The position numbers were made by a program, and so were the translations under genes. Source: Planctomycetia bacterium (GTDB lineage: Bacteria; Planctomycetota; Planctomycetia; Pirellulales; PNKZ01). From it: 64,000 nucleotides of DNA. Positions 3,147 to 43,898 of this stretch are shown here, piece by piece; positions within the stretch are counted from its first letter, which is position 1, and each line of letters begins with the position of its first letter. The notes under the pieces were generated by a model, which saw only the letters and a list, made by a program, of their open reading frames with translations, ran no database searches and was not told where the DNA came from. The stretch spans positions 186,001-250,000 of the forward strand of contig JAIOPP010000008.1 of NCBI GenBank assembly GCA_021413845.1, given 5' to 3'.

Positions 3147-4211
3147 GTGCTTAATTTCCGTACGAAAGAAGGCCGAGCCGCCAGCCGACCCACGAACTAT
3201 CTCGGGCACAAGTTTCAACGCCCCTGGATCATCGGGTTGTTCGTGCTCGCCGGCGGGTTGTGGTTGGTGCGCGGCGGCGATCCGGCGAAGTTTTCCCGCA
3301 TGTTCGGGCAACGGGGCGAGGTGCAGGTCGCCTTGGCCGACGGCAACTTCAAAGACAACGCCGTCGAAAAGCCGGCGGCCGTCGTGCGGCCGGGGGAAGT
3401 GAAAGCGGTCGGTCCGCGCCCGGAGAACCCGGTCGAAGGGAAGCGGCTGTTTCACAACGTCGACCCTAAGCTGTTCACTACGCTCGAAGACGACGCGGTG
3501 CATCGCTTCGAAGAACAGAAGAGTTTCTTCACGTTGTTGAAGACGCTCGAAGGGGCCGACGAGCGCGATATCGACTTAGCCTCGTCCGGTCGACGCAACT
3601 TCCGCCAACTCTTCGAGCAAACGGACGACTACCGCGGCGAGATCGTGACCGTGGCCGGTATCGTGCGGAGGATCGTGCCGCAGCCGGCGAACGAGAACCC
3701 GCAAGGAATTAAGAAGTTCTACGAGGTCTGGATCGAACCGACCGGCGGGCGGCTGCCGATCGCGATCGATTGCCTGGAGATGCCGCGAGATTATCCCGTC
3801 GGCGGCAACTCTGCCCAGTATGTCGAGGCGACCGGTTTCTATTACAAGCGCCTCGGCTACCCGGGCGAGCCGGATGCGCGCACGAAGAAAGAGGTGTTTC
3901 GCTCGGCGCCGCTGGTGTTGGCGAAGACTTTGCGCTGGACTCCGCAAGCCGCTCCGCAGGAGCAGATCGCGCAAGCCGGCGATGCCGCGATGGCCGATAT
4001 CCCCGGCTTGCCGAAAGGGCTGCCGGTCAAATGGATGATGCCGCTGCTCGGCCTAGGAATCGTGTTGATGATCGTGTTGGCCGTCTGGTCGTTTCGTTTG
4101 TCGCGCAGTTCGGTCTTGGATCGCAACGGTCCGATCGTCGGCCGCGCACGTCGTGCCGCCGAAGCGGCTCAAGCTCCGCAGAATCTCAACAAGCTAAAGA
4201 TCGACCCATGA
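3147..4211 (+). CDS. Bitopic membrane protein, first of a tandem related pair
   Basis: A 354-residue protein I do not recognise. It has a membrane segment near each end (about 27-42 and 296-316), so the roughly 250-residue middle is probably extracytoplasmic. The middle contains a GEIVTVAGIVRRIV stretch, then YEVWIEP, then a D-x-LEMPRDYPVG motif and a closing APLVLAKTL. The same order of motifs recurs in the next gene, so the two are diverged paralogues. The start is GTG at 3147; an earlier start would not add a signal sequence. The last bases overlap the next gene as ATGA, implying translational coupling. Function unknown; the G-x-(V/L)-T-V-A-G pattern suggests an OB-like beta fold, weakly. 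Confidence 0.8.
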   Translation: MLNFRTKEGRAASRPTNYLGHKFQRPWIIGLFVLAGGLWLVRGGDPAKFSRMFGQRGEVQVALADGNFKDNAVEKPAAVVRPGEVKAVGPRPENPVEGKRLFHNVDPKLFTTLEDDAVHRFEEQKSFFTLLKTLEGADERDIDLASSGRRNFRQLFEQTDDYRGEIVTVAGIVRRIVPQPANENPQGIKKFYEVWIEPTGGRLPIAIDCLEMPRDYPVGGNSAQYVEATGFYYKRLGYPGEPDARTKKEVFRSAPLVLAKTLRWTPQAAPQEQIAQAGDAAMADIPGLPKGLPVKWMMPLLGLGIVLMIVLAVWSFRLSRSSVLDRNGPIVGRARRAAEAAQAPQNLNKLKIDP

Positions 4212-5908
4212 TTCGCCTTCATCGTTGGTTCTCTCGGTCGCAGATCGTCGTACGAAACAGTTCCGGCCCGGCACGGCTTAGCATGACGCTGCTTGGTGCG
4301 ATGCTGGTCGTCGTGGCGTGTGATTCCTTACCGATCGCAAAGGGGCAGGAGCCCGCGAAGCCGGCCCCTACGGCTACCGCGCCGACTCCTTCAGCTACGG
4401 CTCCTGCAACGCCGGCCCCGTCGGCAACGAAGCCTGAAGCCGCGAAGCCCGAAGCGACGAAGCCGGCCGCTACGACCAATGAACCGGTGCCGACCGTCGA
4501 GTTGAAGCTTCCATCGCTCGGGGGCCCGATGGCGGCGCCGCCGAAAGCGAAAGAGCCGGCCGCCGACGACGAGCTTGGGCAATTGCTTTTCAGCACGGGC
4601 ATCGACGACATTCTGCTCGGCAAATTCCTCGACGGCCGCCCACTCGCCGGGGTCGAACGGCAACCGCTCGTCGGGCTGTTTTCTTCGATCCGGCAATTCA
4701 AACCCGCGGACATCGAAGACCTGAAAGCGAAGGCGAAGCAGCCGAGCGCGTTCGCGGCCGGACCCGCGCGCGGCAAGCTGTGGGAACTCGAAGGACGTTT
4801 GAAATCGATCACGGTCGACGAATTCACCGACGCCGAAATCGAACGAGTCTATGCCGACGTCATCGCGCGCCTCAAAGAAGAGCCGCCGAAGCTGCCGGCC
4901 AACGATATCCGCCGCTTCTTCTATCGCTGCACGATCGAATTCGGCGAAGCCCATGCTCCGGTCACGGTCGTGGCGCTGCGCATGCCCGAGGCGTTGCTCG
5001 CGCTGCATCGCAATCTCGCGGAGCAGCCGTTGAAGGTCGGCGAGGTGCTTAAGGTCGACGAGCGCGTGACCGTCGCCGGGCTCTTCCTCAAGAGCCTCGG
5101 CGAGAAGCCGGGCGAGCAACCGCTCCTCGTGACGTATCGCCCGGCGTGGCATCCCGACACGCCGCTCGGCAAGCTCGGCATGGACTATGGTCTATTCGAT
5201 GACGTCCGACTCACCGCTTCCGACTTAGCGAACGAGCGCGAATGCTTTTTTCAACTCATGGCCGCGATGAAGCGCGCGGAGTTCGGCGAACTGTTGGACC
5301 TCACGACGGAAAACTATTCCGTCGTGCCGTTGTTCAACAGCGCCAAGTCGATGCACGGCAAACTCACGGCGCTCACCGGCACCGCGCGGCGTGCCACGCT
5401 CGTTCGCGTCCCCTATCCGGATATCCATCGCCGCTTCGGGATCGACCACTACTACGAAGTCGCGATCTTCACGGCCGACTCGCGCGACAACCCGTTGATC
5501 TTCGATCTCTTGGAGCTTCCTCCCGGATTCCCCGAAGGAGACGATATCCATGTCGAGGTGCGCATTCCCGGCACCTTCCTCACCGGCTTCGTCTACGATC
5601 GCGATGCGACCGACAAAGAGCAATCGAAGGGGATCAAGCCGCTCGCGCAGAAAGCGCCGCTGCTGATCGGCAAGACCCTCTATCGCTATCAAGCGAAGGA
5701 CGAGAAGGCCGGCTCGTTCGATTGGTACGTCAGTGGCCTGATCTTGCTCGGCGCTTTAGCGCTCGGGGCGGTCGGCTGGGCCACGATGCGCGGCGACCGC
5801 AAAACGCGCAAGATCATGGAGCACACGAATGCCCCACCGACGGGTACTTCGCTCAACGACCTCAAGGGCGACTTCCGCAACGGGCCCGACTTCAGCAACC
5901 TAGAGTGA
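4208..5908 (+). CDS. Membrane or lipoprotein, second of a tandem related pair
   Basis: A 566-residue protein starting at the ATG inside the ATGA overlap with the previous gene. The N-terminus has a hydrophobic stretch ending in VVVAC (Cys 38), a possible lipobox. A long Ala/Pro/Thr/Lys low-complexity linker follows (about 48-95). A second membrane segment lies at about 506-526. The C-terminal half repeats the motif order of the upstream protein: GKLTALTGTARRA, YYEVAIF, LIFDLLELPPGFPEG and APLLIGKTL. A less clear copy may precede it around residues 200-330. The pair is probably co-translated and may form a complex in the envelope. No enzyme motif is visible and I assign no function. Real gene; function unknown. 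Confidence 0.8.
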   Translation: MIRLHRWFSRSQIVVRNSSGPARLSMTLLGAMLVVVACDSLPIAKGQEPAKPAPTATAPTPSATAPATPAPSATKPEAAKPEATKPAATTNEPVPTVELKLPSLGGPMAAPPKAKEPAADDELGQLLFSTGIDDILLGKFLDGRPLAGVERQPLVGLFSSIRQFKPADIEDLKAKAKQPSAFAAGPARGKLWELEGRLKSITVDEFTDAEIERVYADVIARLKEEPPKLPANDIRRFFYRCTIEFGEAHAPVTVVALRMPEALLALHRNLAEQPLKVGEVLKVDERVTVAGLFLKSLGEKPGEQPLLVTYRPAWHPDTPLGKLGMDYGLFDDVRLTASDLANERECFFQLMAAMKRAEFGELLDLTTENYSVVPLFNSAKSMHGKLTALTGTARRATLVRVPYPDIHRRFGIDHYYEVAIFTADSRDNPLIFDLLELPPGFPEGDDIHVEVRIPGTFLTGFVYDRDATDKEQSKGIKPLAQKAPLLIGKTLYRYQAKDEKAGSFDWYVSGLILLGALALGAVGWATMRGDRKTRKIMEHTNAPPTGTSLNDLKGDFRNGPDFSNLE

Positions 5909-8659: not shown

Positions 8660-8700
8660 CTCGACCCGCCGACGTTCTCACCGTTCTGAATGATCACTAC

Positions 8701-8730
8701 CGAATTTATTAACACCGAATTTATTAACAC
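8701..8730 (+). repeat. Tandem 15-bp direct duplication
   Basis: Two perfect adjacent copies of CGAATTTATTAACAC at 8701-8715 and 8716-8730, AT-rich in a GC-rich setting. It sits just before the signal-peptide ATG of the next gene. If translation began at the upstream ATG (8690) it would encode EFINT twice, an unlikely leader, which supports the start at 8744. Confidence 0.8.
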
Positions 8731-8743
8731 TGAGACGCGCAGC

Positions 8744-10426
8744 ATGCATGCCATCCGAGGTTCGTTTGCGGCCGTGGTGTTCGTGATCGGTTGCGCGACG
8801 CAGGTGCAGGCCGAGCTGCGCGTCGAGTCGCAAGCGGTCGCGGTGCCCGATCGCGCGGTGCCGAAATATCCGGCCGGTCCGATTCGCGGCACCCTCTTTC
8901 TCGGCCGGGGCTGCGGCGACTCGAAAGAAATCGTCGAAGCGTTTCTCGCCCTCGCCGGCGGTGAGAAGGCGAACATCGTCGTGCCGACCTTCGTCGACCC
9001 GGCCGGAGCCGCCGCGCATCCGAATGCCTGGTGGCGCAAACACGATTGGGCCAAGGTGCGGATTCTCACGGCCCGCAATCGGGCCGATGCCGAAAGCGCC
9101 GACTTCCTGGAAAAAATGCGCAAGGCGACCGGCGTTTGGTTCGACGACGATTCGGTGCGCGAGCTGATCGCGATCTACGGCGCGCCGCTGTTTCTGCAAG
9201 AGCTGAAGGCGCTGCTCGATCGCGACGGCGTCGTCGGCGGCGACTTGCGCGGCGCGCAAGCCTTGTCGCAGATCGTCGGCGTGCGGGATGCAGAGAAGAC
9301 GAGTGCAGAAAAGACGCCGGCCGAGAAGACGAAGACCGGGATCGATATCGTCGGCGGCTTCGGCTTGCTGCCGAATTGCATCGTCGGAATCGGCGACGAC
9401 GTCTCCGCCCGCAAAGCCGATCTCGCCGAGGTCATGAACCGATATCCGGGCCGTGTCGGTTTCGATCTCGACGACGACACGGCACTCGTCGTCCGCGGCC
9501 GGATGCTCGGCGCCGTCGGCACGGGAAGCGTGAATATCGTCCTCGCGGCGTCGACCGATCGGCCGGTGAATACGATTCGCCTCCGTCAACACATGCGCGA
9601 CGACCTCACGGCGCTCACCCGCGCCGCGATCGCGCGCACGCAGCCGTCGTTCCCGTTGGAGAAGCCCGCGGCGCCGCTCGTGCCGAAAGGTTCGCTCTTG
9701 GTCGTCGGCGGGGGTGGGATGTCGGAAAGCTTGCGGAAGAAATTCGTCGAGCTCTCCGGTGGCGCCGACAAAGCCGTGATCGCCGTCATCCCGACGGCGA
9801 GCGAGAACCCGGCGGCCGACGAAGGGGATATCGGCTGGCTGATGAAGGCCGGCGCGAAGAAGGTCGTGATCGTGCATGCGCGCACGCGGGCCGAAGCGAA
9901 CTCGCCGGAGTTGATCGCGAAGTTGCGCGAATGCGGCGGCGTCTGGTTCGGCGGCGGCCGGCAATGGCGGTTCGTCGATGCCTACGAAGGGACCGCCTGC
10001 TACGACGAGTTCCATGCCGTGCTCGCGCGCGGCGGAGCCATCGGCGGCAGTTCGGCCGGAGCCACGATCCAAGGGGAATATTTGGTACGCGGCAGCCCGA
10101 TCGTCAACACGATCATGATGGCCGAGGGTTACGAGCGGGGCTTCAACTTCATGCCGGGCACGGCCATCGATCAGCACTTCACGCAGCGCAACCGGAAGCC
10201 CGACATGGAAGGGGTGAAGCGAACGTTTCCGCAATTGCTCGGCCTCGGGATCGACGAAGGAACCGCGATCGTCGTCCAAGGCTCGCAGTTCGAAGTGGTC
10301 GGCCAAAACGAAGTCTCGGTCTTCCCGCCATCGGCCAAACTCGCCGCCGACGCCGAACCGCCGGCCCCGCAAGTCCTCAAGCCCGGCGACATCTACGACC
10401 TGAAGAAATTCAAGCGCAAAGATTAG
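8744..10426 (+). CDS. Secreted tandem cyanophycinase-like (peptidase S51) protein
   Basis: A 560-residue exported protein starting at 8744, where MHAIRGSFAAVVFVIGCATQ forms a signal peptide; an ATG at 8690 would place 18 polar residues ahead of it. It contains two S51-like domains of about 250 residues. The second (about 305-540) has GGSSAGA, the nucleophile elbow of cyanophycinase and peptidase E, plus a downstream QHF and DEGTA that fit the rest of the active site. In the first domain the matching elbow reads GGDLRGA, so the serine is lost and the domain is probably structural or inactive. Single-domain cyanophycinases are about 270-300 residues, so this is a duplication. The substrate may be a beta-Asp peptide; inferred. 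Confidence 0.85.
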   Translation: MHAIRGSFAAVVFVIGCATQVQAELRVESQAVAVPDRAVPKYPAGPIRGTLFLGRGCGDSKEIVEAFLALAGGEKANIVVPTFVDPAGAAAHPNAWWRKHDWAKVRILTARNRADAESADFLEKMRKATGVWFDDDSVRELIAIYGAPLFLQELKALLDRDGVVGGDLRGAQALSQIVGVRDAEKTSAEKTPAEKTKTGIDIVGGFGLLPNCIVGIGDDVSARKADLAEVMNRYPGRVGFDLDDDTALVVRGRMLGAVGTGSVNIVLAASTDRPVNTIRLRQHMRDDLTALTRAAIARTQPSFPLEKPAAPLVPKGSLLVVGGGGMSESLRKKFVELSGGADKAVIAVIPTASENPAADEGDIGWLMKAGAKKVVIVHARTRAEANSPELIAKLRECGGVWFGGGRQWRFVDAYEGTACYDEFHAVLARGGAIGGSSAGATIQGEYLVRGSPIVNTIMMAEGYERGFNFMPGTAIDQHFTQRNRKPDMEGVKRTFPQLLGLGIDEGTAIVVQGSQFEVVGQNEVSVFPPSAKLAADAEPPAPQVLKPGDIYDLKKFKRKD

Positions 10427-11091
10427 TCCGCACGGTTCGCTGGAAATCTTCTTTGGCCTAGTTCTTCGCGTTGAAATCCTGGCGCGCAAGTGCGATGTTC
10501 TGGTTCGTGACGGAGACAGGACTCCGACCTCTGCGAGGTTTCGACGCGTCGCTTCATTGCGACGACGAATCGCGATGGGAAGCTTTCGGTCGAGGCCGCG
10601 CCGCTTGTCGCCGCCGTCGGCCGGAAGGAATCGACTTAGCTGTCGGTCCCTCGCGACGCCGGTCGGCCGGGCGGCGTAATAACCGCGCGGCGTCTTCTTC
10701 TTCTCGCGAGCCAGTCTCGCGGAAGCCGGCCGGGTGCAATGCTCTGCGCAGAGAACGTTTGACAAGAAGCCCGACCGAACCCGGGCGACGACGCACGAAC
10801 TTTTTTGAAGTCGCCAGTGAGGCGATCACGGCCGTGCTTTGAATTAAAGTAGCAGGCACGTTCCACGTGCCGTAGCCACGAGGTCCTCTCAAGCGCGAAC
10901 CACGCTCGCAACGCAATCAGCCTCCGTTCAATAGCCCGGGATGTATATCCCGGGGAGCCGGCCTGTTCGTAGCGCTAAGCCATCCGTGGCGGACGGCACG
11001 TGGAACGTGCCTGCTACGTTAGCAACCGCGGGTATTCACCGCGCGGCTATCGATTCAACTGACCCCCGACCTCTGACCCCCGACCCCTCTC
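10427..11091. other. Long intergenic region carrying a REPIN-like element
   Basis: A 665-base gap. Positions 10849-11017 are the inverted-repeat element listed separately. The remaining 420 bases on the left hold short open frames that are arginine-rich on every strand and do not look like proteins. No RNA gene, terminator or convincing promoter is visible. Confidence 0.6.
10849..11017. repeat. REPIN-like inverted-repeat element, copy 1
   Basis: Two 23-base units in inverted orientation at 10849-10871 and 10995-11017. Each unit is itself a hairpin (GGCACGT, loop TCC, ACGTGCC) preceded by GTAGCA on its outer side. The unit is followed by GTAGCC at the left end and by GTCCGCCAC at the right end, so the ends are distinct. 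The 123-base core contains a further perfect hairpin at 10935-10954 (CCCGGGAT stem, GTAT loop). A second copy with the same ends in the opposite orientation lies at 42656-42798. No transposase is nearby. The pairing of palindromic units resembles REPINs moved by RAYT transposases; that relation is inferred. Confidence 0.8.
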
Positions 11092-13017
11092 CTACGTCGG
11101 CATCCCGAGCTGTCGCATCTTCCGATACAAGTTCGAGCGATGCAGGCCGAGGCGTTCGGCCGCTTCGCTCATGTTGCCCCCCGTCCGATCGATCGAGCGT
11201 TTGATATAGGTCTTCTGAAATTCATCGGTCGCCTCCGCCAACGAGAGATCGTCGGGCACCGGCGGCGCCACTTCCCCCGCCGCGGCGAGGATAAATGCCA
11301 AATCTTCCGGTTCGATCCGATCGCTCGAACACAAGTAGGCGAGCCGTTCCATGGCGTTTCGCAGCTCGCGAATGTTGCCGGGCCAAGCATGCGCTTCGAG
11401 TCGCTTCTTCGCCGCTGCCGAAAGCGCCGGCAGCTTGCGTCGGGCCTTCTTGGCGAAGTCGTGCAGAAAGTGCTCGGCCAAGAGGGTGATGTCGCCGGGC
11501 CGATCGCGCAGCGCCGGCAAGTTGATCGAAACCACGTTGAGTCGAAAGAACAAATCTTGGCGAAACTTTTTGGCCCGCACCATTTCCGCGAGGTTCTGAT
11601 TCGTCGCGGCGATGACGCGCGCATCGGTATGAATGCTCTTCGATCCGCCGACGCGGACGACCACCTTCTCTTCCAACACGCGGAGCAGTTTCGCTTGTCC
11701 GCCGAGGCTCAAGTCGCCGATTTCGTCGAGGAACAGCGTGCCGCCGTCGGCCAGCTCGAACTTGCCGGGCCGCGCCTCATGCGCATCGGTGAAGGCTCCT
11801 TTTTCATGACCGAACAGTTCGCTTTCCAGCAACGTCTCGGTGATCGCCGCGCAGTTGACGGCGATGAACGGCTGATCGCGGCGCGGGCTCAAGTAGTGGA
11901 TCGTCCGCGCCACGACTTCCTTCCCGGTGCCGTTCTCGCCGAGGATCAACACCGCGAGCTCTGTATCGGCGACGCGGCCGGTCGTCGAACGGAGCGCTTC
12001 GATCGCCGGCGACTCGCCGACGATCTGCACGCCCGAGGCCGCTTCGTCGGCCAGGTGTCGGCGCGACTGCATGAGTCGCGCCCGCTCTTGCGTGTTCTCG
12101 AGCGCCGTGGCGGCATGCGCGGCGAACTCCGTCAGCGCGGTTTCGTCTTCTTCGGTGAAGTCTCCTTCGAGCTTGTTGATCACCTCGAACGCGCCGAGGA
12201 TTTCTCCCCGCCGCGAAACGAGCGGCACGCAAATCAGCGTGCGGGTCTTGTAGCCGAGCTTCGCGTCGACGTCGCGCGCAATCTGCTCTTGGCCGAACCG
12301 CAGGTCGACGCGCCGCGGCTGCTTCATCCGAATCACTTCGCCGACGACTCCCTTGTCGTCCGGTATCCGCAGTTCGTTCCCTTCGACGCCGAGCGCCGGC
12401 CGGCCGATGAGGAGCTTATTGGGTTTGTCCCAGAGAAAGATGCTGGCCCGATCGGCTGCGAGCATCTTCGTCGCGGCCTCGGCCATCTGCACCAAGAGCG
12501 GCTCCATCTCCTGGGTCTGATTCCATTGCCCGGAGATCGTGAGGAGCGCTTCGAGACGGCGCCGGCGGCGATGTTCGCGACCGGCCGACCGGACCGAGCC
12601 GGCGGCTTGCGCGAACGAGGGCAGAACCTGTTCGACGGACCCTCGCATCCGTTCGGCCTGCGCCATGTCGGCGGCATGCACGATGAGGACTTCGCCGGCC
12701 GCGGCCCGGCGATCGACCGACGCGGCGATCCAGCCTTCGTTTTTCACCGGCGACTCGGAGTCGAGCGCATCGGCGAGGAACGCGGCGGTCAGCTCGCCCG
12801 AGGCCAGCGAGGCATTGCCGACCGAGGCGACGGTCGACCAACGGCCGTCGATGTTGCGCATGACCCCTGCAAAGTCGGCGGCGAGCCCGGAGGCGAGCGC
12901 TTGTAAAGCATTGTCCAAAAACGACTTATCGGACTCATGCGAGCGTAAGCCGAGTTCTAGGATCGTTTTGTTTAGAACCGCGAGAGATCCGGCGTTGTCT
13001 TTAGAGACGGAAGCCAT
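11092..13017 (-). CDS. Sigma-54 dependent activator: GAF, AAA+, Fis-type HTH
   Basis: A 641-residue bacterial enhancer-binding protein. An N-terminal sensory region (about 30-145) is followed by a GAF domain (158-308) and an AAA+ core (about 333-560). The core has Walker A GENGTGKE (360-367), Walker B GGTLFLDEIGD (425-435) and FRLNVV near the sensor region. The loop that contacts sigma-54 reads GAFTDA (407-412) instead of GAFTGA. A Fis-type helix-turn-helix closes the protein (about 600-640, GGNMSEAAERLGLHRSNLYRK). There is no receiver domain, so the signal probably acts through the GAF region. Two 20-bp palindromes lie 45-90 bases upstream of the start and may be its own binding sites. Divergent from metG. 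Confidence 0.93.
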   Translation of the reverse strand: MASVSKDNAGSLAVLNKTILELGLRSHESDKSFLDNALQALASGLAADFAGVMRNIDGRWSTVASVGNASLASGELTAAFLADALDSESPVKNEGWIAASVDRRAAAGEVLIVHAADMAQAERMRGSVEQVLPSFAQAAGSVRSAGREHRRRRRLEALLTISGQWNQTQEMEPLLVQMAEAATKMLAADRASIFLWDKPNKLLIGRPALGVEGNELRIPDDKGVVGEVIRMKQPRRVDLRFGQEQIARDVDAKLGYKTRTLICVPLVSRRGEILGAFEVINKLEGDFTEEDETALTEFAAHAATALENTQERARLMQSRRHLADEAASGVQIVGESPAIEALRSTTGRVADTELAVLILGENGTGKEVVARTIHYLSPRRDQPFIAVNCAAITETLLESELFGHEKGAFTDAHEARPGKFELADGGTLFLDEIGDLSLGGQAKLLRVLEEKVVVRVGGSKSIHTDARVIAATNQNLAEMVRAKKFRQDLFFRLNVVSINLPALRDRPGDITLLAEHFLHDFAKKARRKLPALSAAAKKRLEAHAWPGNIRELRNAMERLAYLCSSDRIEPEDLAFILAAAGEVAPPVPDDLSLAEATDEFQKTYIKRSIDRTGGNMSEAAERLGLHRSNLYRKMRQLGMPT

Positions 13018-41747: not shown

Positions 41748-42659
41748 ATGGCGGACGCGACTCCACTTTCCGGCCCGGTGTTTACGGCGGTCGGTGAAAA
41801 CGGCTTGCGCATCTTTTCGCGCGATGGGCGCACGTGGGACCATTCGCAAAGCGGCCGCGAGGGAGAAGTGTTTTCGACGGCCTGTTTCGGCGGCGGCAAG
41901 TGCGTCGTCGGCGGGCGCTTCGGCGGTGAGAACATCTTCGCGGCGTCCACCGACGGTGCCCAGTGGCAGCCGGCGAAGCACAACGCGCAGTACGCCAACT
42001 ACATCTCGTGCCTCGTCTACTTTCGCAACAAGTTCATCGCCAGCGGCGCCAACTTCGTGATCCCGTCGGACGATGGCATCACCTGGTTGAAGGAACACAA
42101 GATCGCGGAGTACAAGGTTTCCTACGGCCTCGGCGGCGTGCTGCGCCGGTTCGCGATCGGCGAAGTCGAGAAAGGGGAGACCGTGATCGTCGGCGTCGGC
42201 GACTTCGCGCGGTGCTCCGTCTCGCGCGACGGGCTCGAATGGAAGAACGCTCCGAATCCGAAAGCGGTCAATACGCTGATCGACGTCGCTTACGGCAACG
42301 GCTGCTTCGTCGGCGGCGGCATGCACGGCTTGCGGATGCGCAGCGTCGACGGGCTCGCGTGGACCGACCGAGTCGTCGGCGAAGAAGGGGAGCATCTCAA
42401 CGCCGTCGTTTGGGACGGGAAACAGTTTGTCGGGATCGGCCAAGGGGCGACCTACTTCTCGCCCGACGGCCTTGCGTGGAAACGGGTGCCGAATACGAAC
42501 GCTCCGACCACGGCGGCTTTCGGCGGCGGCGTTTACGTCGGTGCGTTGTGGCCGGGCCGGATCATGCGCTCGACCGACGCCGTGCGGTGGGAAGAAGTCG
42601 TGCGCCTGTCGGACCATGTGCTCGCGCTGGCGTTCGGCTCGCTCGGTCCGTCCAAGTAG
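41748..42659 (+). CDS. BNR/Asp-box-like beta-propeller protein
   Basis: A 303-residue protein with at least six repeats containing S-x-D-G-x-x-W, the Asp-box signature of BNR propellers: for example FSRDGRTWDHS, STDGAQWQPA, VSRDGLEWKN, RSVDGLAWTDR and SPDGLAWKRV. It has no signal peptide in this reading frame, although its DUF1552 and DUF1592 neighbours are exported. It begins 50 bases after the DUF1552 stop. The stop codon TAG is formed by the first bases of the inverted-repeat element at 42656, so the natural C-terminus may once have been longer. Galactose-oxidase or sialidase activity is not implied by the repeats alone. Confidence 0.85.
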   Translation: MADATPLSGPVFTAVGENGLRIFSRDGRTWDHSQSGREGEVFSTACFGGGKCVVGGRFGGENIFAASTDGAQWQPAKHNAQYANYISCLVYFRNKFIASGANFVIPSDDGITWLKEHKIAEYKVSYGLGGVLRRFAIGEVEKGETVIVGVGDFARCSVSRDGLEWKNAPNPKAVNTLIDVAYGNGCFVGGGMHGLRMRSVDGLAWTDRVVGEEGEHLNAVVWDGKQFVGIGQGATYFSPDGLAWKRVPNTNAPTTAAFGGGVYVGALWPGRIMRSTDAVRWEEVVRLSDHVLALAFGSLGPSK

Positions 42660-42798
42660 CAGGCACGTTCCACGTGCCGTCCGCCACACCGGATGTCGAA
42701 GCGCCGAAACGGATCGAGCTGCTCGCCGAGAGTGTGGCGCGGTGCGGCATGCGCTGCCATGAAGCAAGCGGCTACGGCACGTGGAACGTGCCTGCTAC
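42656..42798. repeat. REPIN-like inverted-repeat element, copy 2
   Basis: Two 23-base units facing each other at 42656-42678 and 42776-42798, with the same sequence as copy 1 (GTAGCA then GGCACGT-TCC-ACGTGCC). The inner flanks are GTCCGCCAC on the left and GTAGCC on the right (read inward), the reverse order of copy 1, so the element lies in the opposite orientation. The 97-base core has a further inverted repeat CGCCACAC (42682-42689) with GTGTGGCG (42732-42739). It lies exactly between two convergent genes and gives both their TAG stop codons. Target-site duplication is not evident. Confidence 0.82.
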
Positions 42799-43898
42799 TT
42801 TGGCGTGCCGGCTACTTCGCGCACGACGCGGAAGCCGGTGTAGCTGAACGCGTCGCCGGCTTCGGCGAACGAGCGGGTCGCCGAGCGGCAACTGATCGGG
42901 CTCACGTACCACGAGCCGCCGCGCACGCTGCGCCAATCGCCGTACTGATGCTGCGGCGTCGTGTCCGGTCCTTGCGGATCGACGACGAAGACCGGCTGCT
43001 TCATGCGCCGCAGCTCTTGCAAGTCTTTTTGTCGCGCCGCGTAGAGCCGATCTTGATACCGGTCGCGGCACCATTCCCAAACGTTGCCGTGCGTGTCGTA
43101 GAGCCCGAAGGGGTTAGGTTTGAACTTGCCGACGGGGGCCGTGAACGTGACGCCGTCCCCTTCTTCGGGCTTAAGGCGATCGGCCCTTTGGCGAGCGACG
43201 ATGCCGGGGACTTCCTTTTCGAGAGCGCCGTCGCCGAGGTTGCCGTGGGCGTAGAGTAGGTTCGGGTCGTCGCCGCAGGAGTAGACGGTCGTCGTGCCGC
43301 CGCGGCAAGCGTATTCCCATTCCGCTTCGGTCGGCAGCCGATAGGATGCTCCTTCGCTCTTCGAGAGCCAAGCGCAAAACGCGTTCGCGTCGTTCCAACT
43401 CACGCAGACGACCGGATGCTCGTCGGTTTGCTCGAAGCCGGGGTTCTTCCACGACGCTTGCGGGTCGAGCGCGAAGCGATCGGGCTCGAGCTTCGCTTGC
43501 GGATGCAGCGTGAACGCTCCGCGGCCCGTTCGTTCGGCATCGGTCTTGTAGCCGGTCGCCGTGACGAATGCGCGGAACCGGCCGACCGTGACTTCGTGCG
43601 CGGCGATCGCGAACGGCTTCGTCAGCCGCGTCGGCAGAGCAGGGCGGTCGTCTTCGAAACCTTGGCCGACTTGAATGCTCGTCGGATGATTCAGGCTGAC
43701 CTTGTTGTAGCTCTCTTCTCCCATCACGAAATCGGCGGCGGGTAGCTCGACGAGTTGCATGCCGAGGGAGTTGACGCTGGTCGGCAGGGGAACTTTCGGC
43801 GATGGTTCTGCGGCGGCCGCGAAACCGCAAGCGAATAACGATGCGACATAGATGCTTAAGCACTGCTTGAGGAATCGCAACAACACTTTCTTACGCAC
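42795..43898 (-). CDS. Secreted SUMF1/formylglycine-generating-enzyme-domain protein
   Basis: A 367-residue exported protein with a SUMF1 (FGE) domain. Landmarks are VELPAADFVMGEE, AAHEVTVGRFRAFV, HPVVCVSWNDANAFCAWLS, RLPTEAEWEYACRGG and GLYDTHGNVWEWCRD. Near the end RGGSWYVSPISCRSATRS lacks the two copper-binding cysteines of the true enzyme, so sulfatase activation is doubtful. The start is GTG at 43898, 8 bases inside the upstream DUF1552 gene, with AAGGAG (on the minus strand) 8 bases before it. Such coupling implies a shared job with the DUF1552 and DUF1592 proteins. The TAG stop lies in the inverted-repeat element. Confidence 0.9.
   Translation of the reverse strand: MRKKVLLRFLKQCLSIYVASLFACGFAAAAEPSPKVPLPTSVNSLGMQLVELPAADFVMGEESYNKVSLNHPTSIQVGQGFEDDRPALPTRLTKPFAIAAHEVTVGRFRAFVTATGYKTDAERTGRGAFTLHPQAKLEPDRFALDPQASWKNPGFEQTDEHPVVCVSWNDANAFCAWLSKSEGASYRLPTEAEWEYACRGGTTTVYSCGDDPNLLYAHGNLGDGALEKEVPGIVARQRADRLKPEEGDGVTFTAPVGKFKPNPFGLYDTHGNVWEWCRDRYQDRLYAARQKDLQELRRMKQPVFVVDPQGPDTTPQHQYGDWRSVRGGSWYVSPISCRSATRSFAEAGDAFSYTGFRVVREVAGTPK

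Follow-up and report, generated by a model that had tools for sequence, protein, structure and literature searches.

REP doublets of a Planctomycetia genome, their candidate transposase and a structured element of about 600 nt that many of them border

The finding of two similar elements with inverted ends in a 64,000-nt stretch of the genome of a Planctomycetia bacterium (assembly GCA_021413845.1, contig JAIOPP010000008.1, positions 186,001 to 250,000; G000:C8:186001-250000, hereafter the window) raised the question of what these elements are, what could move them and whether they can carry other DNA. A preliminary description of the window had proposed that each is an inverted pair of one 23-base unit, with one end of each of two types and the order of the ends swapped between the copies; direct reading of the sequence confirmed this arrangement (copies 1 and 2, Table 1). 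The unit, GTAGCAGGCACGTTCCACGTGCC, is composed of the foot GTAG, two bases and a perfect 7-bp stem (GGCACGT/ACGTGCC) with the loop TCC. The two end types are told apart by their tails, GTAGCC for type A and GTCCGCCAC for type B: in copy 1, GTAGCC comes after the left unit and GTGGCGGAC, which is GTCCGCCAC on the other strand, precedes the right one. In copy 1, with the A tail GTAGCCAC, the two ends can pair through GCCAC and GTGGC around a small asymmetric internal loop. The equivalent ends of the two copies gave exact 32-nt matches in a repeat search and, modeled as single-stranded DNA, both copies fold far better than 200 shuffles each (z = -9.18 for copy 1 and -8.66 for copy 2). Their cores measure 123 and 97 nt, as first described; the view of the cores as unrelated had to be given up in part, since the hairpin block T1 of copy 1 recurs in the family, being present in 38 of 88 elements. 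As developed below, both elements are very probably REPINs, i.e. inverted doublets of a repetitive extragenic palindrome (REP), of a family mobilized in trans by a REP-associated tyrosine transposase (RAYT), an HuH single-tyrosine transposase whose action on the ends we infer.

The first support for this assignment comes from the rest of the genome (7.08 Mb in 167 contigs), where the 23-mer was found with up to three mismatches at 194 places (96 + 98), against 0 for the reversed control. The preliminary description had named a genome holding only its two copies as the outcome that would speak against a family; 194 units were counted instead of four. Pairs were recorded in the window and in loci L037 to L120 with five mismatches allowed, a census that need not cover all 194 places, and at least 88 inverted pairs were obtained versus 19 unpaired units, some of which lie at contig ends. 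These 88 elements are 89 to 218 bp long and combine A with B ends in 61 cases, B with B in 16 and A with A in 9, two being unclassified; random pairing expects 42.9 A+B elements, and 61 was reached by 3 of 20,000 shuffles. Some copies have the variant feet GTTG or GTAA. The cores contain T1 in 38 elements, a second block, T2, in five and neither in 45. A GTAG foot with a palindrome, an inverted doublet folding into one hairpin and many copies, mostly doublets, are thus all found here, in support of the REPIN-type family that had been suggested for this genome. Some long cores, at L062, L066, L098 and L102, which go with lengths of up to 218 bp, carry repeats of a CTCCGTTCACACGCAG-like block. 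The idea that T1 and T2 also lie inside the sibling REPINs of related genomes was dropped: at four of their loci (L184, L182, L189 and L193, from G002, G005 and G001) blocks resembling T1 or T2 lie outside any REP pair, at a distance of 337 to 1040 nt from a REP. Such blocks could be independent repeats that were taken up into REPIN cores in the present genome.

A second line of evidence is the presence of a candidate transposase, which the preliminary description had expected to be encoded elsewhere. The genome contains six Y1_Tnp matches, one with an internal stop. On contig C67, a gene encoding a 226-amino-acid protein (L037 3954-4634, minus strand) lies between two REPINs of the same family (3781-3957 and 4624-4799) and has the TAG of a REP as its stop codon. 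The protein carries NHVH at position 142, WQ at 182 and YIAENP at 203, corresponding to the HuH, WQ and YIxxNP motifs tabulated for RAYTs in PMC6006769. It scores 25.4 bits against PF01797 (cut-off 23) and matches NF047646, the NCBIfam model for REP-associated tyrosine transposases, with 64 bits and an E value of 1.3e-17. The PDB search with the single sequence gave no match; a profile built with 20 relatives (45-62% identical) gave one match at E up to 0.01, TnpArep (4er8, E 0.0011). The protein is therefore called RAYT-like on the basis of its motifs, its flanks and the 4er8 match, and not of the NF047646 cut-off. All three motifs are kept in 76 of the 96 near-full relatives from the loci examined, this genome's own included. 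A second RAYT, 66% identical to the first (L229 1409-2360; G000:C167:20669-21304), is bordered by the REP variant GTTGCAGGCACGCTCCGCGTGCC, and mixed elements with one end of each variant exist, e.g. L083 706-873. The gene that had been predicted was thus found in the company of the same REPINs, and its role in moving them is deduced from association and homology.

The association extends to other genomes. At an E value of 1e-10, RAYT matches occur in 17 of the 57 related genomes, a count that includes the present one, with G003 as the only congener among them. We then considered the surroundings of RAYT genes in named genomes, for which 80 of 176 stretches encoding a RAYT relative were kept, and in genomes of the same order, scoring as a flanking hairpin a foot GTAG, GTGG or GTTG with a stem of at least 7 bp within 300 nt; overlapping loci were kept in the counts (known repeats include at least L231/L238, L237/L240 and L217/L268). 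By this rule, the RAYT gene is flanked on both sides in 43 of the 65 eligible named loci, on one side in 7 and on neither in 15, and the corresponding values for the 28 eligible same-order loci are 13, 4 and 11. Hairpin density near the RAYT was 4.58 per kb versus 0.21 beyond 600 nt for the named loci, and 3.96 versus 0.26 for those of the same order. The REP stems vary among genomes with their pairing retained, among the loci listed.

The position of the REPINs relative to genes also bears on their nature. Outside the foot, 175 ends have a biased flank, with A at -3 in 148, A at -2 in 158 and A or C at -1 in 165. A coding-scored frame runs toward the element at 89 of 176 ends; its stop is the TAG of GTAG in 13 of these 89, a TAA at -4 in 13, and lies at most 20 nt away in 59. 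Coding was scored with a codon model derived from long open reading frames (ORFs) of the window, and single calls may err. Copy 2 is a case in point, as its edges are exactly the stop codons of both convergent neighbor genes, a feature that the preliminary description had not reported. That termini of GTAG-tagged REPs often supply a TAG stop codon has already been published (PMC3733652). An ordinary miniature inverted-repeat transposable element (MITE) family moved by a DDE transposase, and not by a RAYT, would equally be short, with inverted ends, a variable core and many copies. It is an extremely improbable explanation in view of the GTAG foot with its hairpin, the association of RAYTs with REPs across genomes and the lack of a target-site duplication, which was seen for 3 or 4 nt in 0 of the 88 elements and for 2 nt and for 5 nt in one each.

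The place of the elements at gene 3' ends and their strong folding could also suggest static transcription terminators or mRNA stabilizers, kept for their function and not mobile. To this we oppose the expansion of the family in this species and the comparison with three genomes of the same genus, in which the 23-base unit was not found within two mismatches. These congeners have 14, 1 and 15 sibling REP units, 25 of the 30 with fully Watson-Crick stems. The joined flanks of 15 sites (8 + 7) were queried, and at three of them both flanks lie side by side in a congener. First, the site of a 111-bp REPIN on contig C71 is empty in all three congeners, where the upstream gene, which ends here in the TAG of the REP, is a few codons longer as read by eye. 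Second, that of a 190-bp REPIN on C160 is empty in two, the third having the flanks about 900 bp apart. Third, a whole block of 873 bp on C21, composed of two REPINs with a copy of the structured element described below between them, is absent from all three. Since sister species are without the element at the three comparable sites, we conclude that the family moves, and the empty sites for which the preliminary description had turned to sister genomes do exist, at other members of the family rather than at the two window copies. A purely static function is hence very unlikely; some copies may nevertheless act as terminators now. At the empty C21 site of G001 (L170 1330-1545), a lone sibling REP, GTAATAGGCACACTCCGTGTGCCGTCCGC, was observed in the gap, and this spot may have been hit repeatedly.

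Several points weigh against a RAYT-mobilized REPIN family: 25 of the 88 pairs have both ends of one type (16 BB and 9 AA), the C67 protein stays at 64 bits below the NF047646 cut-off of 80, no flanking hairpin was scored by rule at 15 of 65 named and 11 of 28 same-order RAYT loci (overlapping loci included), and 12 of the 15 queried sites, namely both window elements, the RAYT locus and nine others, are uninformative, with flanks unmatched or not side by side in the congeners. Taken together with the preceding evidence, they leave this family the strongly preferred explanation of both elements. In the mechanism that we propose, the two inverted REP units and their spacer would fold as single-stranded DNA into one long hairpin, the RAYT, judging from association and homology, would mobilize it in trans with cleavage presumably at or near the GTAG feet, and insertions would mostly fall right after a coding sequence, at places where the GTAG foot can contribute TAG as the stop. 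Some blocks with a REPIN at each end of an intervening RNA may spread as one unit.

This last step concerns a second repeat family, which copy 1 adjoins in the window, its decayed copy there being another addition to the preliminary description. Many REPINs have a second REPIN at a distance of about 600 bp, and when the intervals between them were compared, nine of 11 belonged to one repeat family, the other two holding the RAYT gene and unrelated sequence. The 33 matches of this family correspond to 32 copies in the genome, many of them cut by contig ends. Contigs C64, C92, C95, C124 and C139 begin inside the element beside a REPIN (L072, L086, L091, L102 and L111), so that complete copies are under-counted. 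A consensus fold of 15 aligned copies, with the window copy dropped, predicted for the plus strand 162 pairs (34 of them occurring in two or more Watson-Crick types) and -174 kcal/mol, whereas ten column shuffles of the alignment gave 7-13 such pairs and -78 to -94; for the minus strand the values were 121 pairs (22 in two or more types) and -130. When the prediction excluded G-U pairs, the plus-strand helices contain 54 G-U and 14 A-C cells, and the minus-strand helices 18 and 47, an asymmetry that gives the structure the polarity of a plus-strand RNA. In the 3' domain (23 sequences), 96.5% of the cells are paired and eight pairs are changed on both sides, compared with 93.3% and 3.2 in shuffles, which leave relatedness uncontrolled, and with 34.8-47.9% and 2-6 pairs in slid versions; the structure tested was derived from the same alignment. 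In 23 of 23 aligned copies, GAA and a T run come after the outer stem of this domain.

The strand polarity of the predicted fold suggests that the element is an RNA rather than DNA, although G-T pairs in single-stranded DNA could mimic a weaker form of this signal. A structured single-stranded DNA, the body of a non-autonomous transposon, would account for a repeat bordered by transposon ends, for the minus strand of the L083 copy folding as well relative to shuffles as the plus strand (z -3.76 and -3.75) and for the absence of a promoter-like site in 10380-11100 of the window. The same region has two terminator-like sites on the minus strand (shuffles average 0.8). Structured DNA is an unlikely alternative given the plus/minus asymmetry, the invariant GAA and T run and the three copies without a REP, and we keep the RNA as the preferred interpretation. 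Rfam gave no match at gathering score in the window, L039 or L106; with the threshold relaxed to E 5, five loci gave 12 matches, all below gathering scores. A protein-coding element was rejected: stop-free frames reach about 200 codons, but multiples of three make up just 10.4% of the 1370 pairwise indels, and three-base periodicity is absent. An origin from a decayed RAYT gene was likewise discarded (best tblastn E value 0.91).

The element has a narrow distribution. A DNA search of 19 relatives gave a single match of 31 bp, in G006, and otherwise did not find the element. With a model of the 3' domain it was detected in three of 396 genomes of the order, all of one family: this genome, G003 with one copy and G006 with five, these being lower bounds due to strict filters and eight scored candidates per genome. 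At two of the six G003 and G006 loci, the rule detected a single GTGG-foot hairpin each, and at the other four no REP-like hairpin. Contig C74 of the present genome has a divergent copy without REPs (L323 339-491 and 729), and an ORF starting about 240 bases downstream of it may encode translation initiation factor IF-1, which its product resembles.

Do the REPINs carry this element? A REP is present at both ends of 11 copies, at one end of 18 (many contig-cut) and at neither end of three (C69, C74 and C99), i.e. at least one REP in 29 of 32. Counted by end motif, 17 of 22 5' ends and 21 of 25 3' ends have a REP nearby, in loci mostly fetched because they hold REPs, and a REP whose foot is mutated lies at one further 3' end. 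Seven complete composites at unrelated loci have one order, with B ends toward the RNA. Over their 21 pairwise comparisons the RNA is 81-91% identical, whereas the 200-nt outer flanks are at the level of unrelated sequence (52-59%). The 5' REPIN block is 77-90% alike in 11 pairs and 51-59% in 10, where a double REPIN is compared with a single one, and the 3' REPIN is 77-90% alike in 15 pairs and 50-57% in the six that involve L054, whose 3' REPIN is short. The likeness of REPINs had been considered as evidence for joint movement and was dropped, as T1 REPINs away from the RNA are equally alike (means 80.0, 78.4 and 80.0% beside versus away, with only four away).

Joint movement is favored by the common order at unrelated loci, the tandem double REPIN that L040 and L083 have in common at 88% in unrelated surroundings, the empty C21 site in three congeners and the presence of an RNA copy in the loci of 34 of the 38 T1 REPINs. 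On these grounds we tentatively propose, with a chance that we put slightly short of even, that the REPINs serve as termini of a composite transposon, its cargo being a structured RNA gene of about 600 nt that is specific to this lineage and has been amplified to some thirty loci in one species. The competing scenario, in which structured elements and REPINs spread independently, REPINs often inserting beside structured copies and the composite being no mobile unit, is also a serious candidate, if one to which we would give fewer than even chances. REPINs indeed gather after stop codons too, with 26 of 89 coding-side ends at two exact positions and 59 within 20 nt, and could have a similar preference here. 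The junctions are of two classes at the 5' side (3 nt and 11 nt) and of several at the 3' side, and the REPIN types differ among the seven composites (two with a 5' double REPIN, one with a short 3' REPIN). T1 REPINs are as alike beside the RNA as away from it, the C21 site is compatible with other than one-step insertion, and there are copies without REPs here and without clear flanking REPs in relatives. Finally, the window REPIN beside the structured copy is opposite in orientation to those of the seven composites; lying next to an old, partly deleted copy, copy 1 probably inserted on its own. The arrangement of the window is given in Table 1.

Table 1. Features of the window, in positions of the 64,000-nt stretch
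Feature	Position	Strand	Remarks
REPIN copy 1, 169 bp	10849..11017	+	Left end of type A (GTAGCC), right end of type B (GTCCGCCAC); core long, T1 block present
REP unit, A end of copy 1	10849..10871	+	GTAG + CA + 7-bp stem, TCC loop
REP unit, B end of copy 1	10995..11017	-	
T1 core hairpin block in copy 1	10924..10955	+	In 38/88 elements (10-mer, one substitution allowed)
REPIN copy 2, 143 bp	42656..42798	-	Left end of type B, right end of type A; neither T1 nor T2 block in the core
REP unit, B end of copy 2	42656..42678	+	Supplies the upstream gene's stop codon, TAG at 42657-42659
REP unit, A end of copy 2	42776..42798	-	Supplies the convergent gene's stop codon, TAG at 42795-42797 (minus strand)
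Decayed structured-element copy	10452..10848	+	About 200 nt of the middle missing relative to full copies; 3' side abuts REPIN copy 1, 5' side without REP
3' domain of structured element	10673..10808	+	87.9 bits with model R1 (built from other copies of this genome, window copy excluded)
Gene, 578 aa, peptidase S51 domain	8690..10426	+	Upstream of structured-element copy
Gene, 641 aa, sigma-54 activator	11092..13017	-	Downstream of REPIN copy 1
Gene, 303 aa	41748..42659	+	Without Pfam match (E 0.001); REPIN copy 2 supplies its TAG stop
Gene, 367 aa, FGE-sulfatase domain	42795..43898	-	Stop is the TAG of REPIN copy 2

If a REPIN pair can carry 600 bp, REPIN/RAYT systems could duplicate functional cargo, and here a transposase system known for bare hairpins would have spread one RNA over some thirty loci of a single species. 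The structured element, for which Rfam gave no match, was found in one bacterial family among the genomes searched and reaches about thirty copies in this species, whose genome offers a natural series of copies for testing cargo carriage.

In the literature consulted on known systems, RAYTs are regarded as movers of short REP or REPIN hairpins (PMC3116915, PMC3733652, PMC2817692, PMC6006769, PMC8266576), and it is well supported that the REPIN/RAYT part of our system is of this known kind. The composite that bears an RNA may be new, no earlier description having been found in the literature searched. The REPIN/RAYT systems of Bertels and Rainey 2011 (PMC3116915) are alike in their inverted REP doublet hairpins with many extragenic copies, in RAYTs with matching REPINs alongside and in tandem REPIN clusters; our elements differ in being 89 to 218 bp long with the common inner hairpin blocks T1 and T2, and in standing at the ends of a structured element of about 600 nt. 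GTAG-tagged REPs, reported also in Planctomycetes (PMC3733652), share the GTAG foot with a palindrome and the position near the 3' ends of convergent ORFs, whereas the unit with a TCC loop and the REPIN-RNA-REPIN blocks are not described in the part of that source available. The REPtron (PMC2817692, PMC6006769, PMC8266576) resembles our system in its RAYT flanked by coevolving REPs and in paired REPs that differ slightly, and the perfectly palindromic REP with a 3-nt loop found here recalls the group-3 REP of Stenotrophomonas described in the same sources.
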